Below are positions 1,955 to 7,997 of a stretch of DNA of 8,387 nucleotides, piece after piece. The notes beneath the pieces were generated by a model. The model searched no databases. It was not told where the DNA came from and saw only the letters and a program-made list of their open reading frames with translations. The position numbers and the translations under genes were made by a program. This stretch comes from DASVDK01 sp036381125 [NCBI: Thermodesulfobacteriota bacterium] (GTDB taxonomy: Bacteria > DASVDK01), in contig DASVDK010000150.1 of the NCBI GenBank assembly GCA_036381125.1, positions 1 through 8,387 of the forward strand. The letters are read 5' to 3'. Position 1 is the stretch's first letter. Every line of letters begins with the position of its first letter.

Positions 1955-3415
1955 ATGGCCTGGCCCGGAATGGTCGAGTACTCGGCCGCCGTGCAGAACC
2001 AGCGGGCGAGCTTCCTCGCGCCGGAGCTGAAGGCCGCGAGCGTCGTCACCAACCGACTCGGCCTGCCGAAGGTCTGCTCCGGCGCGTTCGCGATCGTCTA
2101 CGAGCTGACGAACGGCCGGGACCGCTGGGCGATCCGCTGCTTCACCAGGGAGGTCGGCGACCTGATGGAGCGGTACGCCGCGATCGCCGAGCACCTCCGC
2201 AAGGCGGCGCTGCCGCAGTTCGTGCCGTTCGACTACCTCCAGGACGGCATCCTGGTGAACGGCAAGCCGTACCCGATCATGAAGATGCAGTGGGTCGAGG
2301 GGGTGCCGCTGGGCCGCTACGTCGAGCAGCACCTCGGCGACCCCGCCCGGTTGCTCGCCCTGGCGGGCCGGTTCGGCGAGCTGTCGGCCGCGCTCGAGAA
2401 GCAGAAGATCGGCCACGGCGACCTCTCCGCGGACAACGTCCTCCTCGTGAACGACGCCATCACCCTCATCGACTACGACGGGCTGTACGTGCCGGCGCTC
2501 GCCGGCCGGAAGGCGCGCGAGCTGGGGAACCCGGCGTTCCAGCACCCGCGGCGCGACGACACGATCTTCGGGCCGGAGGTGGACCGGTTCTCGGTCCTCC
2601 TCATCGCCACGGCGCTCGCGGCGCTCGCCGCCGACCCGGGCCTCTGGTCGCGGCACTCGGGCGGCAACGGGATCCTCTTCTCGCCGGCCGACCTGCGCAG
2701 CCCCGCCGGCTCGCCCCTCTTCAAGGCGCTGCGCGCGTCGGCGAACGCCGCCGTGCGCGGGCTGGCCGACGAGCTGGCACGCTGGTGCGAGGCGAAGCCG
2801 GGCAAGCTCGGCAAGCTGCCGCCGCTCGGCAAGCTCGCCGCGAAGGTCTCGCCGTCGGCCGCGCCGGCTGCCGCCGCGCCGGCGACGGTGTCGATCACGG
2901 TGGCCATCCCGAACGGCACGGCCGCGCAGCCGGCCGGGAGCGCCCCCCCGGCGCCGGCCGGGACCGCGCGAGTCGCCTGGTGGCGCCGCGGCGCGACCAG
3001 GGCCGCGGCGCCGCGGCAACCCGCGCCGGCTCCCGCGCCCGCCGCGGCTGCCGCGCCCGCACCGGTCGCCGCAGCCGCGCAGGCCGGCCCGGCGGTCGAC
3101 TGGACGGGGCCCTTCGCGACGGCCTTCGGCCTCGGCGTCTTCGCCGTCCTCCTCGCGCCCGAGACGCGCTCGCTGTCGGTGCTGCTCGTCCCCCTCCTGG
3201 TGGCGCTCGTGGCGGGGGTCGACGCCGCCTACCAGCGGAGCGGGGAGCCCGGGGCGCTGCGGGCGAGCGTGGGGGCGAGCGCGTTCGGCGCGGGGCTCTT
3301 CGGCGTGCTGCTGGCGCCCGAGACCGCGTCGGCGTCGATGCTCGCCCTTCCGGTGGTCCCCGCGCTCGTCTACGGCGCCAAGCGTGCGGCCGCGAGCGCG
3401 CCGCCGGGCCCCTGA
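1955..3415 (+). CDS. Protein kinase with Ala/Pro linker and C-terminal duplicated membrane hairpin
   Basis: This 486-residue protein carries a compact kinase-like domain at about residues 30-285. Visible elements are a glycine-loop-like CSGAFAIVYEL (41-51), a beta-3 segment WAIRCF (58-63) with R61 where VAIK kinases have lysine, a catalytic loop HGDLSADN (154-161; D156, N161), and LIDYDG (171-176), whose D173 corresponds to the DFG aspartate. GNPAFQHP (191-198) follows in the activation segment. Residues 297-382 form an Ala/Pro-rich linker. Residues 387-474 hold four hydrophobic stretches arranged as two similar hairpins, suggesting membrane attachment. The ATG lies one base after the PP2C stop, with GGGAG at 1943-1947 seven bases upstream. 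In TerY-P triads the kinase phosphorylates still unknown targets in a VWA-dependent manner; that is prediction, not seen here. The stop codon falls inside a repeat palindrome (3411-3426). Kinase activity is likely, though the Arg-for-Lys change leaves doubt. Confidence 0.85.
   Translation: MAWPGMVEYSAAVQNQRASFLAPELKAASVVTNRLGLPKVCSGAFAIVYELTNGRDRWAIRCFTREVGDLMERYAAIAEHLRKAALPQFVPFDYLQDGILVNGKPYPIMKMQWVEGVPLGRYVEQHLGDPARLLALAGRFGELSAALEKQKIGHGDLSADNVLLVNDAITLIDYDGLYVPALAGRKARELGNPAFQHPRRDDTIFGPEVDRFSVLLIATALAALAADPGLWSRHSGGNGILFSPADLRSPAGSPLFKALRASANAAVRGLADELARWCEAKPGKLGKLPPLGKLAAKVSPSAAPAAAAPATVSITVAIPNGTAAQPAGSAPPAPAGTARVAWWRRGATRAAAPRQPAPAPAPAAAAAPAPVAAAAQAGPAVDWTGPFATAFGLGVFAVLLAPETRSLSVLLVPLLVALVAGVDAAYQRSGEPGALRASVGASAFGAGLFGVLLAPETASASMLALPVVPALVYGAKRAAASAPPGP
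3125..3376 (+). repeat. Internal duplication coding for two hydrophobic hairpins of the kinase
   Basis: Kinase residues 391-421 (bases 3125-3217) and 444-474 (bases 3284-3376) align without gaps at an offset of 53 residues. By hand, 19 of 31 positions are identical, including F-G-x-G-x-F, VLLAPET, the S-x-S spacing and ALVxG. Each copy would form a pair of short hydrophobic segments around the APET turn. This looks like an in-gene tandem duplication of a membrane hairpin. Confidence 0.65.
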
Positions 3416-3518
3416 CCGGGGTCAGGTCTTTCCATTTTCCATGGGGTCAGGTCTTTCCATTTTCCATGGGGTCAGGCCTTGCCGTTTTCCAGACGGGAGA
3501 ACGTTGGGGGGCTGACCC
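3411..3518. repeat. Intergenic repeat array: three abutting 25-bp units with palindromic ends
   Basis: Two perfect 25-bp units (3418-3442 and 3443-3467) begin GGGGTCAGGTCTTTCC and continue with a T-rich half ending in CCAT. A third, degenerate unit (3468-3492) differs at a few positions. The left edge is the palindrome CCTGACC-GG-GGTCAGG (3411-3426), which contains the kinase TGA stop. On the right, CTGACCC (3512-3518) is inverted relative to the GGGTCAG starting the third unit. The T-rich halves contrast with the GC-rich surroundings. A single inverted copy lies at 7972-7997. The region separates the two convergent VWA units and could also act as a transcription barrier. It resembles short dispersed palindromic (REP-like) elements; that class is inferred. 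Confidence 0.8.
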
Positions 3519-3579
3519 TACTCGTTCTCCGCGGGCCGCAGCCGACCCGCCCCGGCGCCGCACTCCACCGGCAGACGCG

Positions 3580-4413
3580 CTAGCGGAGGGTCGACGCGCG
3601 CGTCCCGAGGTCGAGGAAGCTCACGAGGGAGACGAGGTCGGCGTTGAAGGCGAAGCCCCGCGAGCCGTCCGTCACGGCGAAGCCCTCCTTGGCCGCCTCG
3701 CGCCGCAGCGGCTCGGGCAGCAGGCTCGACATCCGGAAGAGCCGGCGCGCGTGATCGTCGGGGAGCCCCGTCTCGCTGTCGGCGAACCGGATCGGCGTCG
3801 CGCGCTTCGACGAGAGGTGGATGTTGAAGAGAAGGGCACGGCCGTCAGCCGTCTCGTGTCGCGTCAGCTTTGCCGCAGCCGCCGTCGGGTCGCCGTCGCT
3901 CGACCCGCCGTCGGTGACGTGGATGACCGTCGGCGGGTAGCCCATCGCGTGTGTCGCCACCCACTCGGCGACGACGCCGTCGAGGAGCGCGAGCGCCGCG
4001 CACATGGGGGTCTCGCCCTTCGCCACCGGCTCGACCCACACCGGGAGCCGCACGGCGACCTGGGTCGCCTCGCTCGCGGTCCGCTTGGCCTTCTTGATGC
4101 CGCCGTCGAGCCGGAGCGGGTGCTCCGCCAGTCGACTGATCGGCACGAGCGACTCGCCGGCGAGCGCCCCGCCGAGGCAGGGCCCCACGGTGGCCCCGTA
4201 GCCGAAGACGCCGACGTGGAACCAGTCGAGGACGTCGTCCCCCTTCGAGCAGCGCATCACCAGGGTGTAGAGGAGCGAGTTGACCGCGCCGGCCACCTCC
4301 TCGGCCTTGCTGCGCCGGTCGCTGCCGCCCCACGAGTGGCTCATGGAGCGGGACTGGTCGAGGAGGAAGAGGAACGCGGTCGGGTTGCCGCGACTGATCT
4401 CGGCAGCGTACAC
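3580..4413 (-). CDS. Second VWA-domain protein, paralog of the triad VWA (VWA copy 2)
   Basis: This 277-residue protein aligns end to end with the VWA protein at 382-1212, with about 66% identity by hand and one inserted residue near position 30. The best conserved stretches are the first 14 residues, a 28-residue block from LLYTLVMRCSKG onward, and the C-terminal SSLLPEPLRREAA and EGFAVTDGSRGFAFNADLV. MIDAS ligands are kept (D19, S21, S23, T135, D168), but the usually glycine position of DxSGS is arginine (DQSRS). The GTG start is supported by GGAGG (plus-strand CCTCC 4420-4424) six bases away and by the N-terminus shared with copy 1. It runs convergently to the kinase gene across the repeat array and has its own promoter. 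No second kinase or phosphatase lies beside it, so it probably works with the triad as an alternative or partner adaptor (inference). Confidence 0.87.
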   Translation of the reverse strand: MYAAEISRGNPTAFLFLLDQSRSMSHSWGGSDRRSKAEEVAGAVNSLLYTLVMRCSKGDDVLDWFHVGVFGYGATVGPCLGGALAGESLVPISRLAEHPLRLDGGIKKAKRTASEATQVAVRLPVWVEPVAKGETPMCAALALLDGVVAEWVATHAMGYPPTVIHVTDGGSSDGDPTAAAAKLTRHETADGRALLFNIHLSSKRATPIRFADSETGLPDDHARRLFRMSSLLPEPLRREAAKEGFAVTDGSRGFAFNADLVSLVSFLDLGTRASTLR

Positions 4414-4454
4414 GTTCGGCCTCCGCGCGAGGGCGCCTCGAGTGGCGCGCGCCC

Positions 4455-4483
4455 CCTATGCCAGAAGCCGAGGAGCGGGTCAA
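4455..4483 (-). promoter_or_regulatory. Promoter of VWA copy 2, twin of the triad promoter
   Basis: Read on the minus strand: TTGACC (4483-4478), a 17-base spacer, then CATAGG (4460-4455) preceded by TGG. The last seven spacer bases plus CATA form CTTCTGGCATA, identical to the block at 327-337, while the first ten spacer bases differ. The distance from the -10 box to the GTG is 41 bases, against 42 for copy 1. It starts 22 bases after the stop of the upstream transglutaminase-like gene, so VWA copy 2 need not depend on read-through. Confidence 0.55.
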
Positions 4484-4505
4484 GAACCGCGCGGCGAGAC
4501 GCCGG

Positions 4506-5204
4506 TCATTCGGGCCGAGGCTCCGGGTCGCGCCGCTGCGCGGCGAGCCGGACCTCCTGGTCGAGGCCCCGCCGGAAGGCGAGGGTGAAGGACGGCTCGG
4601 TGCCGAAGGCGCCCACCACGCCGCGCACGGCCGGCCGGTTCGCGACCCACACGGAGGGCCGCCAGCCGCTCCAGGGATCGCCGTCCGCCCGCCCGCGGTA
4701 CGTCCAGATGGACGCGCCGAGCCACTCGGGGCTCACGTGCTCGGCGAGGTCGGCGATCGAGGCGGCCTGCGCCGCCACGTGCCCCTCCGTGGAGACGTAG
4801 CCCCAGCCGTCCGCGGCCAGGTACGCGGCCACCATGTGCCCCGTGTTGCCCGCGCGGTCGGCCTCCTCTCGCCAGACGCTCACGAGCCAGGTGGGGTACC
4901 CCTGCTTCGCCAGCACGGCGGCCGCGAACCAGGCCCAGTCGTCGCAGTCGCCGGCGCCCTTCGAGAGGAACTCGTCGGGGGGGACGAAGCGTTCGGGCAC
5001 GCCGTAGAGGTCGCGGTCGTCGCGGAAGCTGAAGCGCCTCAGCATGTACGTCGCGACGGCGTCGGGGGAGTCGAGGTCGAGCGAGAGGTCGAGGAGCCAC
5101 GGCGACCCCGCCGTCCGGTGGACCGCCCCGGGCACGAGCAGGAGAGCGGCCAGACCGGCCATGGCGATTCGCCGCAGGCCACGGGATCGAACGAATCGGG
5201 CCAT
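4506..5204 (-). CDS. Secreted transglutaminase-like cysteine protease/amidase-fold protein
   Basis: This 232-residue protein has a basic start (MARFVRSRGLRR), a hydrophobic run at residues 13-27 and a likely signal-peptidase site near residues 27-33, so it should be exported. The mature part shows the transglutaminase/papain-like arrangement: GAGDCDDWAWFAA (residues 83-95) with candidate nucleophile C87, and TGHMVAAYL (121-129) with candidate H123. The third catalytic position is less clear: the usual W-x-x-D appears as WGYVST (134-139), with Ser in place of Asp. Such bacterial proteins act as peptidases, amidases or crosslinkers; the substrate cannot be read here. The ATG at 5204 has only a weak GGGG upstream, and no nearby in-frame alternative is better. 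It is divergent from the wall amidase across 93 bases, so a cell-envelope role is plausible but inferred. Confidence 0.75.
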   Translation of the reverse strand: MARFVRSRGLRRIAMAGLAALLLVPGAVHRTAGSPWLLDLSLDLDSPDAVATYMLRRFSFRDDRDLYGVPERFVPPDEFLSKGAGDCDDWAWFAAAVLAKQGYPTWLVSVWREEADRAGNTGHMVAAYLAADGWGYVSTEGHVAAQAASIADLAEHVSPEWLGASIWTYRGRADGDPWSGWRPSVWVANRPAVRGVVGAFGTEPSFTLAFRRGLDQEVRLAAQRRDPEPRPE

Positions 5205-7931: not shown

Positions 7932-7997
7932 CCCGCGGGGTCTGACTGCCGAACCCAGAGGGGGTCAGGCGGGAAAATGGAAAGACCTGATCCCATG
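7921..7997. repeat. Single inverted copy of the dispersed repeat, with palindromic arms, at the rdgB end
   Basis: Bases 7972-7997, read on the minus strand, match the repeat unit of the array at 3411-3518 at 25 of 26 positions (CATGGGATCAGG in place of CATGGGGTCAGG, then the same T-rich half). The copy sits between inverted arms: TCAGGTCTT (7921-7929) pairs perfectly with AAGACCTGA (7982-7990). Inside, GGGGTCAGG (7961-7969) pairs with CCTGATCCC (7986-7994) with one mismatch, and GACCC/GGGTC (7930-7934/7938-7942) forms a further small stem. The element could fold as a transcript-end hairpin for the amidase-rph-rdgB operon; no T-run follows, so that role is uncertain. Confidence 0.75.

Follow-up and report, generated by a model that had tools for sequence, protein, structure and literature searches.

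A duplicated TerY-type VWA gene convergent with a TerY-P-like triad: a probable alternative or competing adaptor specific to its lineage

Organization of the locus

The window, i.e. the whole stretch of 8,387 nucleotides that was analysed, carries a predicted TerY-P-like triad (VWA adaptor, PP2C-type phosphatase and Ser/Thr kinase) plus a second TerY gene. The triad begins just past the end of recA (RecA_C, 1-195), a gene not found at the other triad loci read. On the forward strand, the first gene, VWA1 (382-1212; 276 aa, GTG start), encodes a TerY-type VWA protein and is the slow-evolving copy. It is followed by a PP2C-type phosphatase gene (1225-1953; 242 aa; PADLOC PP2C, PDLC02222, E 5.9e-41; Pfam PP2C_2, 1.2e-08), and then by a gene encoding a Ser/Thr-kinase-like protein (1955-3415; 486 aa), whose match to PADLOC STK_OB (E 2.8e-78) is limited to positions 1-291 of the 562 of the profile. 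The second TerY-type gene, VWA2 (3580-4413, reverse strand; 277 aa), is convergent with the triad: three direct 25-nt repeats lie at 3418-3492 between the kinase stop at 3415 and the VWA2 stop at 3580. A hairpin follows the repeats at 3497-3529; folded as RNA, the entire segment 3405-3530 has a z of -2.14. The hairpin has no T run and is a possible two-way terminator. Within the 8.4-kb window, only the PP2C gene, the kinase gene and the repeats separate the two VWA genes.

Both VWA proteins match the PADLOC TerY profile (PDLC02224) over about the whole of its 277 positions, with E 1.4e-107 for VWA1 and 3.1e-88 for VWA2. In Pfam, VWA1 falls slightly below the cut-off of VWA_2 (9.5e-06) and slightly above that of VWA (3.9e-05). 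VWA2 alone has no match in Pfam or NCBIfam at E 0.01. The original prediction had described the second copy as about 66% identical to the triad VWA along its whole length, on the opposite strand, facing the kinase across a repeat array, and lacking its own kinase or phosphatase. All of this is borne out in the window: BLASTP aligns 183 identical residues out of 277 with one 1-residue gap (E 3e-138), and the next gene upstream of VWA2 on the reverse strand encodes a transglutaminase-like domain (4506-5204; 92 nt from VWA2). The gene had been placed at 3580-4483. Its 3580 end is right, but 4483 overshoots the start codon (4413) into the upstream region; a frame that overlaps the gene (3845-4483) is open as well. 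VWA2 is an intact open reading frame, and its GTG start aligns with that of VWA1. We considered VWA2 as the remnant of a second triad and rejected this, no piece of a PP2C or kinase gene being present on its side.

To the right of the transglutaminase-like gene come an amidase gene, an RNase PH gene, a Ham1-family gene and a tRNA-Pro. A further, inverted copy of the 25-nt repeat is present at 7972-7997, before the tRNA-Pro. With at most one mismatch, the repeat was found in 0 of 100 sampled Pseudomonadota genomes; it was found in no viral contig, and a literature search returned no paper on it.

The regions upstream of the two VWA genes have a 33-nt block in common (310-342 on the forward strand, 4452-4484 on the reverse strand), 79% identical. 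The local alignment score is 48, compared with a mean of 26.3 and a maximum of 47 for 500 shuffles. The block reads TTGACC - 17 nt - CATACG before VWA1 and TTGACC - 17 nt - CATAGG before VWA2, with the same 17-nt spacing and at similar distances from the start codons (48 and 47 nt, respectively). A promoter scan reported neither block.

A kinase without the OB-fold half

The kinase part of the third triad protein covers about residues 1-292. Where the OB-fold half would be, the protein has an Ala/Pro-rich linker and then a pair of hydrophobic repeats; at the DNA level, a repeat is found within the gene (3116-3183/3275-3342). No STK_OB match extends past position 291 of 562, and the alignment shows this half to be replaced. 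In comparison, 9 out of 10 other kinases cover at least 467 of the 562 positions in one stretch, and the remaining one (L026) does so in two stretches. Residues 293-486 contain no cysteine and have no Pfam match, which leaves no zinc ribbon there. The best 19-mer of the C-terminal hydrophobic repeats has a hydropathy of 2.08. The structure model has a mean pLDDT of 50.1, and residues 283-486 are under 50. The kinase of one sampled triad, L034, also stops matching the profile, at position 268, and has hydrophobic segments. This C-terminal part suggests that the window kinase may be a membrane-bound TerY-P kinase.

Two-copy TerY loci among relatives

We scanned genome contigs with two short peptide patterns, which gave three seed loci whose genomes guided the sampling. 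All sampled genomes belong to the Pseudomonadota, and the best VWA among them is 54% identical to VWA1. A protein query gave VWA matches in 3 of 299 Pseudomonadota genomes. The TerY profile gave matches in 8/399, 1/17, 3/249, 1/289, 1/197, 2/369 and 7/42 genomes, depending on the draw (these draws share genomes with one another and contain the genome on which they were centred). In total, TerY was found in 20 genomes and on 2 cyanobacterial plasmids (out of 72,556 plasmids). No VWA relative was detected in viral contigs in two scans, nor in phages.

From these 20 genomes and 2 plasmids, 23 TerY loci were read by BLAST and by a profile search of 967 open reading frames. At least 2.2 kb could be read past the kinase stop in 20 of the 23 loci; 630 nt were readable in L020 and none in L044. 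The original prediction had proposed that the second copy might belong to an extended four-gene form of the triad. This proposal finds no support in our sample, a second TerY gene being nearby in 0 of the 23 loci: each has a single one, counting a split gene once. G1628 is the one genome with two TerY genes; they lie on separate contigs, and each is accompanied by a PP2C and a kinase gene of its own. In another (G1733), the two TerY matches are pieces of one split gene; at this locus (L048, 9254-11166), the kinase frame is open but TerY and PP2C are both broken into two frames, through either decay or sequencing error. L044, on a 3.3-kb contig, has VWA and kinase frames with no PP2C frame of at least 70 aa between them. 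The second triad of G1628 is immediately preceded by a 497-aa open reading frame (L035, 266-1759) that matches Pfam VWA_4 (4.4e-12) and is not TerY-like by profile; a triad can therefore have an unrelated second VWA as its neighbour.

Origin of the second copy

VWA1 and VWA2 were sisters in all trees, with supports of 96/91 (17 rows), 99/99 (18 rows) and 100/99 (23 rows). Two loci were left out of the 23-row tree, of the residue alignment and of the clustering test below: L048, with its split VWA and PP2C genes, and L028, whose VWA (branch length 4.12) has no phosphatase or kinase gene in the stretch read. L002, the same as L001, was also left out of the alignment and the clustering test. The sisterhood points to one private duplication within the sample. 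It had been suggested that a tree of both VWA types might show two stable clades. The tree instead makes the window copies each other's closest relatives, and two old VWA clades are thus ruled out for the sample. In the 23-row tree, the VWA2 branch (0.57) is about four times longer than that of VWA1 (0.14).

The two trees disagree about the kin of the triad. The VWA pair joins the group with OB-fold kinases at 88/87, below the starred level, whereas the PP2C tree, where branches are long, has the window on the membrane-kinase side of a 100/100 split.

Residues changed and kept in VWA2

The five MIDAS residues (D19, S21, S23, T135 and D168 in VWA2) are identical in both window copies and in all 20 other rows. 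From the 79 family-conserved columns kept by VWA1, 10 are changed in VWA2. Seven of these losses fall within residues 100-125, where there are nine conserved columns, compared with 3 of 70 elsewhere (hypergeometric test, 1.4e-6; in a sliding-window control, none of 2000 random draws was as extreme; the test uses VWA1 numbering for 100-125, one residue off VWA2 numbering). This remodelled segment, defined on an alignment of 22 rows, is encoded at 4039-4116 on the reverse strand. The family motif E-x-R ... D-G-x-G ... K-F is gone from it. D110 and G113 (VWA1 numbering) occur in all 20 of the other rows. Long stretches are common to VWA1 and VWA2 at both ends. G22R, a change next to the metal motif, was scored as the loss of a conserved column against 15 other rows but not against 20, and was given no weight.

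Over all conserved columns, the excess of changes in VWA2 is not significant (10 vs. 4 in VWA1; binomial P = 0.18). In relative-rate counts, VWA2 is the faster copy against all 20 outgroups, with a chi-square above 3.84 for 10 of them. The structure model of VWA2 is weak (mean pLDDT 45.9); it places the changed segment in a low-confidence stretch (73-135) between strands at 65-72 and 126-129. A sequence and profile search of the PDB gave no match.

Constraint on VWA2 and exchange between the copies

The only indel between VWA1 and VWA2 is one codon long and in frame, and the frame of VWA2 is open. GC3 is 0.99 in VWA1 and 0.96 in VWA2. The differences between the genes are distributed as 65, 62 and 87 over the three codon positions, with a pairwise dN of 0.266 and a dS of 0.491, the latter compressed by extreme codon bias. 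When amino-acid changes are split by branch length and silent changes evenly, the whole-gene ratio on the VWA2 side is near 1, which would be compatible with relaxed constraint. In neutral simulations starting from VWA1, the combination of no stop codon, GC3 of at least 0.95 and MIDAS residues kept was obtained at frequencies of 0, 0, 0.002, 0, 0.0345 and 0.003 under six settings, for which we assumed 100 or 150 changes; an open frame by itself was retained in 6 to 40% of simulations. With its open frame, its GC3 of 0.96, its retained MIDAS residues and its clustered losses, VWA2 does not look like a gene in simple decay.

The two VWA genes, 74% alike, have an exact tract of 68 nt in common (529-596/4196-4263) and further exact tracts of 40 and 30 nt (1063-1133/3659-3729). 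Identity at silent sites is clustered (permutation tests: P = 0.047 for the longest run, P = 0.006 for the two longest; P = 0.036 at four-fold sites), whereas a test of the ends against the middle is not significant (P = 0.15 at four-fold sites, and 0.28). Gene conversion between the copies is suggested by these patterns.

Comparison with known systems

According to PMC11090510 (and to Gao et al. 2020 as cited there), stand-alone TerY-P systems with OB-fold kinases are antiphage systems. The window has the same VWA-PP2C-kinase gene order, and PADLOC models recognise its VWA, its PP2C and the kinase part of its third protein; it differs in its kinase, which has hydrophobic repeats at the end and no OB-fold half, and in its second VWA. 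The membrane-type triads from the order of G1628 (L034, L043, L045, L046 and L047) also have the gene order of the window; of all PP2Cs and kinases compared, theirs are the closest (33-37% and 40-44%, respectively). Their kinases are longer (622-843 aa), and each has one VWA.

In E. coli, YegI is described as membrane-bound and dephosphorylated by PphC (PMC13232886); biochemistry of YegL-PphC-YegI is cited in PMC13232886 and PMC12189002. This trio of E. coli K-12 (NC_000913) resembles the triad in its set of VWA, PP2C and kinase genes, and YegI resembles the window kinase in its C-terminal hydrophobic segments. YegL reaches a TerY profile at E 2.2e-6. The trio has only one VWA and is not matched by the PADLOC TerY-P models, and BLAST at E 0.01 matched neither YegI nor PphC to any window protein. 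A TerY-P island is also described in Helicobacter pylori (PMC4978471).

Duplicated TerY VWAs are described in Type III-A CoCoNuTs, where the MIDAS threonine is missing from the internal copy (PMC11090510). As in the window, two TerY-related VWAs, one of them diverged, belong there to a system with a TerY-P module. As described in that source, both CoCoNuT VWAs are in the operon, on either side of an ATPase gene, and the internal one is shorter, whereas VWA2 is convergent, full-length and retains its MIDAS residues. A CoCoNuT-like MIDAS loss is ruled out, since T135 is kept in VWA2. The 8.4-kb window contains no CoCoNuT genes, and no ATPase gene lies between its VWAs. Among the open-licence papers searched, we recognised no other description of two TerY VWAs.

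Discussion

The original prediction had suggested that two adaptors, alternative or heteromeric, serve one kinase/phosphatase pair. Its core stands, as VWA2 is a true paralog with an open frame and its metal-site residues kept, and an alternative adaptor is its likeliest role. As far as its sequence tells, VWA2 is probably a real, functional and lineage-specific second TerY adaptor, presumably expressed, and acting as an alternative or competing one. We tentatively favour a duplicated adaptor in which VWA2 would serve the same kinase and phosphatase, its changed segment offering a different partner surface, because the copies are sisters, the MIDAS is kept, the losses are clustered, the frame is open, and both ends and the upstream block are common to the two genes. 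The adaptor gene would have been duplicated in this lineage together with its upstream block, in inverted orientation. VWA1 would have stayed the ordinary adaptor, while VWA2 would have kept the residues that define the fold and the metal site and replaced a contiguous family-conserved segment (100-125). It may dock on the same kinase and phosphatase through the surfaces still in common with VWA1, the changed segment presenting a different client or regulator. Against this reading, the sampled relatives contain no second two-copy locus, and the excess of VWA2 losses is small outside the segment.

The same absence of a second copy from all sampled genomes would be expected of a recent, redundant duplicate under weak constraint and heading to loss, with residues 100-125 as its most tolerant part. 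The fourfold longer branch of VWA2 fits this too, as would a whole-gene dN/dS that may approach 1 on its side. Nevertheless, VWA2 has no stop or frameshift and has kept its GC3 and MIDAS, and the changed segment is conserved in 20 other rows, so that it is not generally tolerant. A spare copy on its way out is rather unlikely.

The confinement of the losses mainly to one otherwise family-conserved segment, the rest being kept, could also mean that VWA2 docks like VWA1 and, without this segment, recruits no client, thereby damping or timing the output of the triad. As a convergent gene set apart from the triad, with an upstream block to itself, VWA2 could be controlled separately. However, client binding by residues 100-125 would have to be assumed, and we regard such a decoy role as unlikely.

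It is very unlikely that VWA2 works with the transglutaminase-like gene and not with the kinase. The two genes are on the same strand with a short gap, but the common upstream block sits between them, so that the two need not be co-transcribed; moreover, no triad locus fetched contains a relative of the transglutaminase-like gene (these loci have no VWA2 relative either).

Because of the exact common tracts and the clustered silent identity, one may also imagine that the inverted VWA genes still recombine, flipping the PP2C-kinase pair behind the other upstream block as a DNA switch of adaptor identity, and copy exchange would then leave hybrid adaptors; conversion without inversion would do, only one orientation was observed, and such a switch is highly improbable.

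The change of one segment with the metal site kept points to residues 100-125 (E-x-R...D-G-x-G...K-F) as a candidate partner surface for the whole family. Duplicated TerY-type VWAs were already described in Type III-A CoCoNuTs (PMC11090510); the window adds a case of adaptor duplication beside a small, predicted stand-alone triad.
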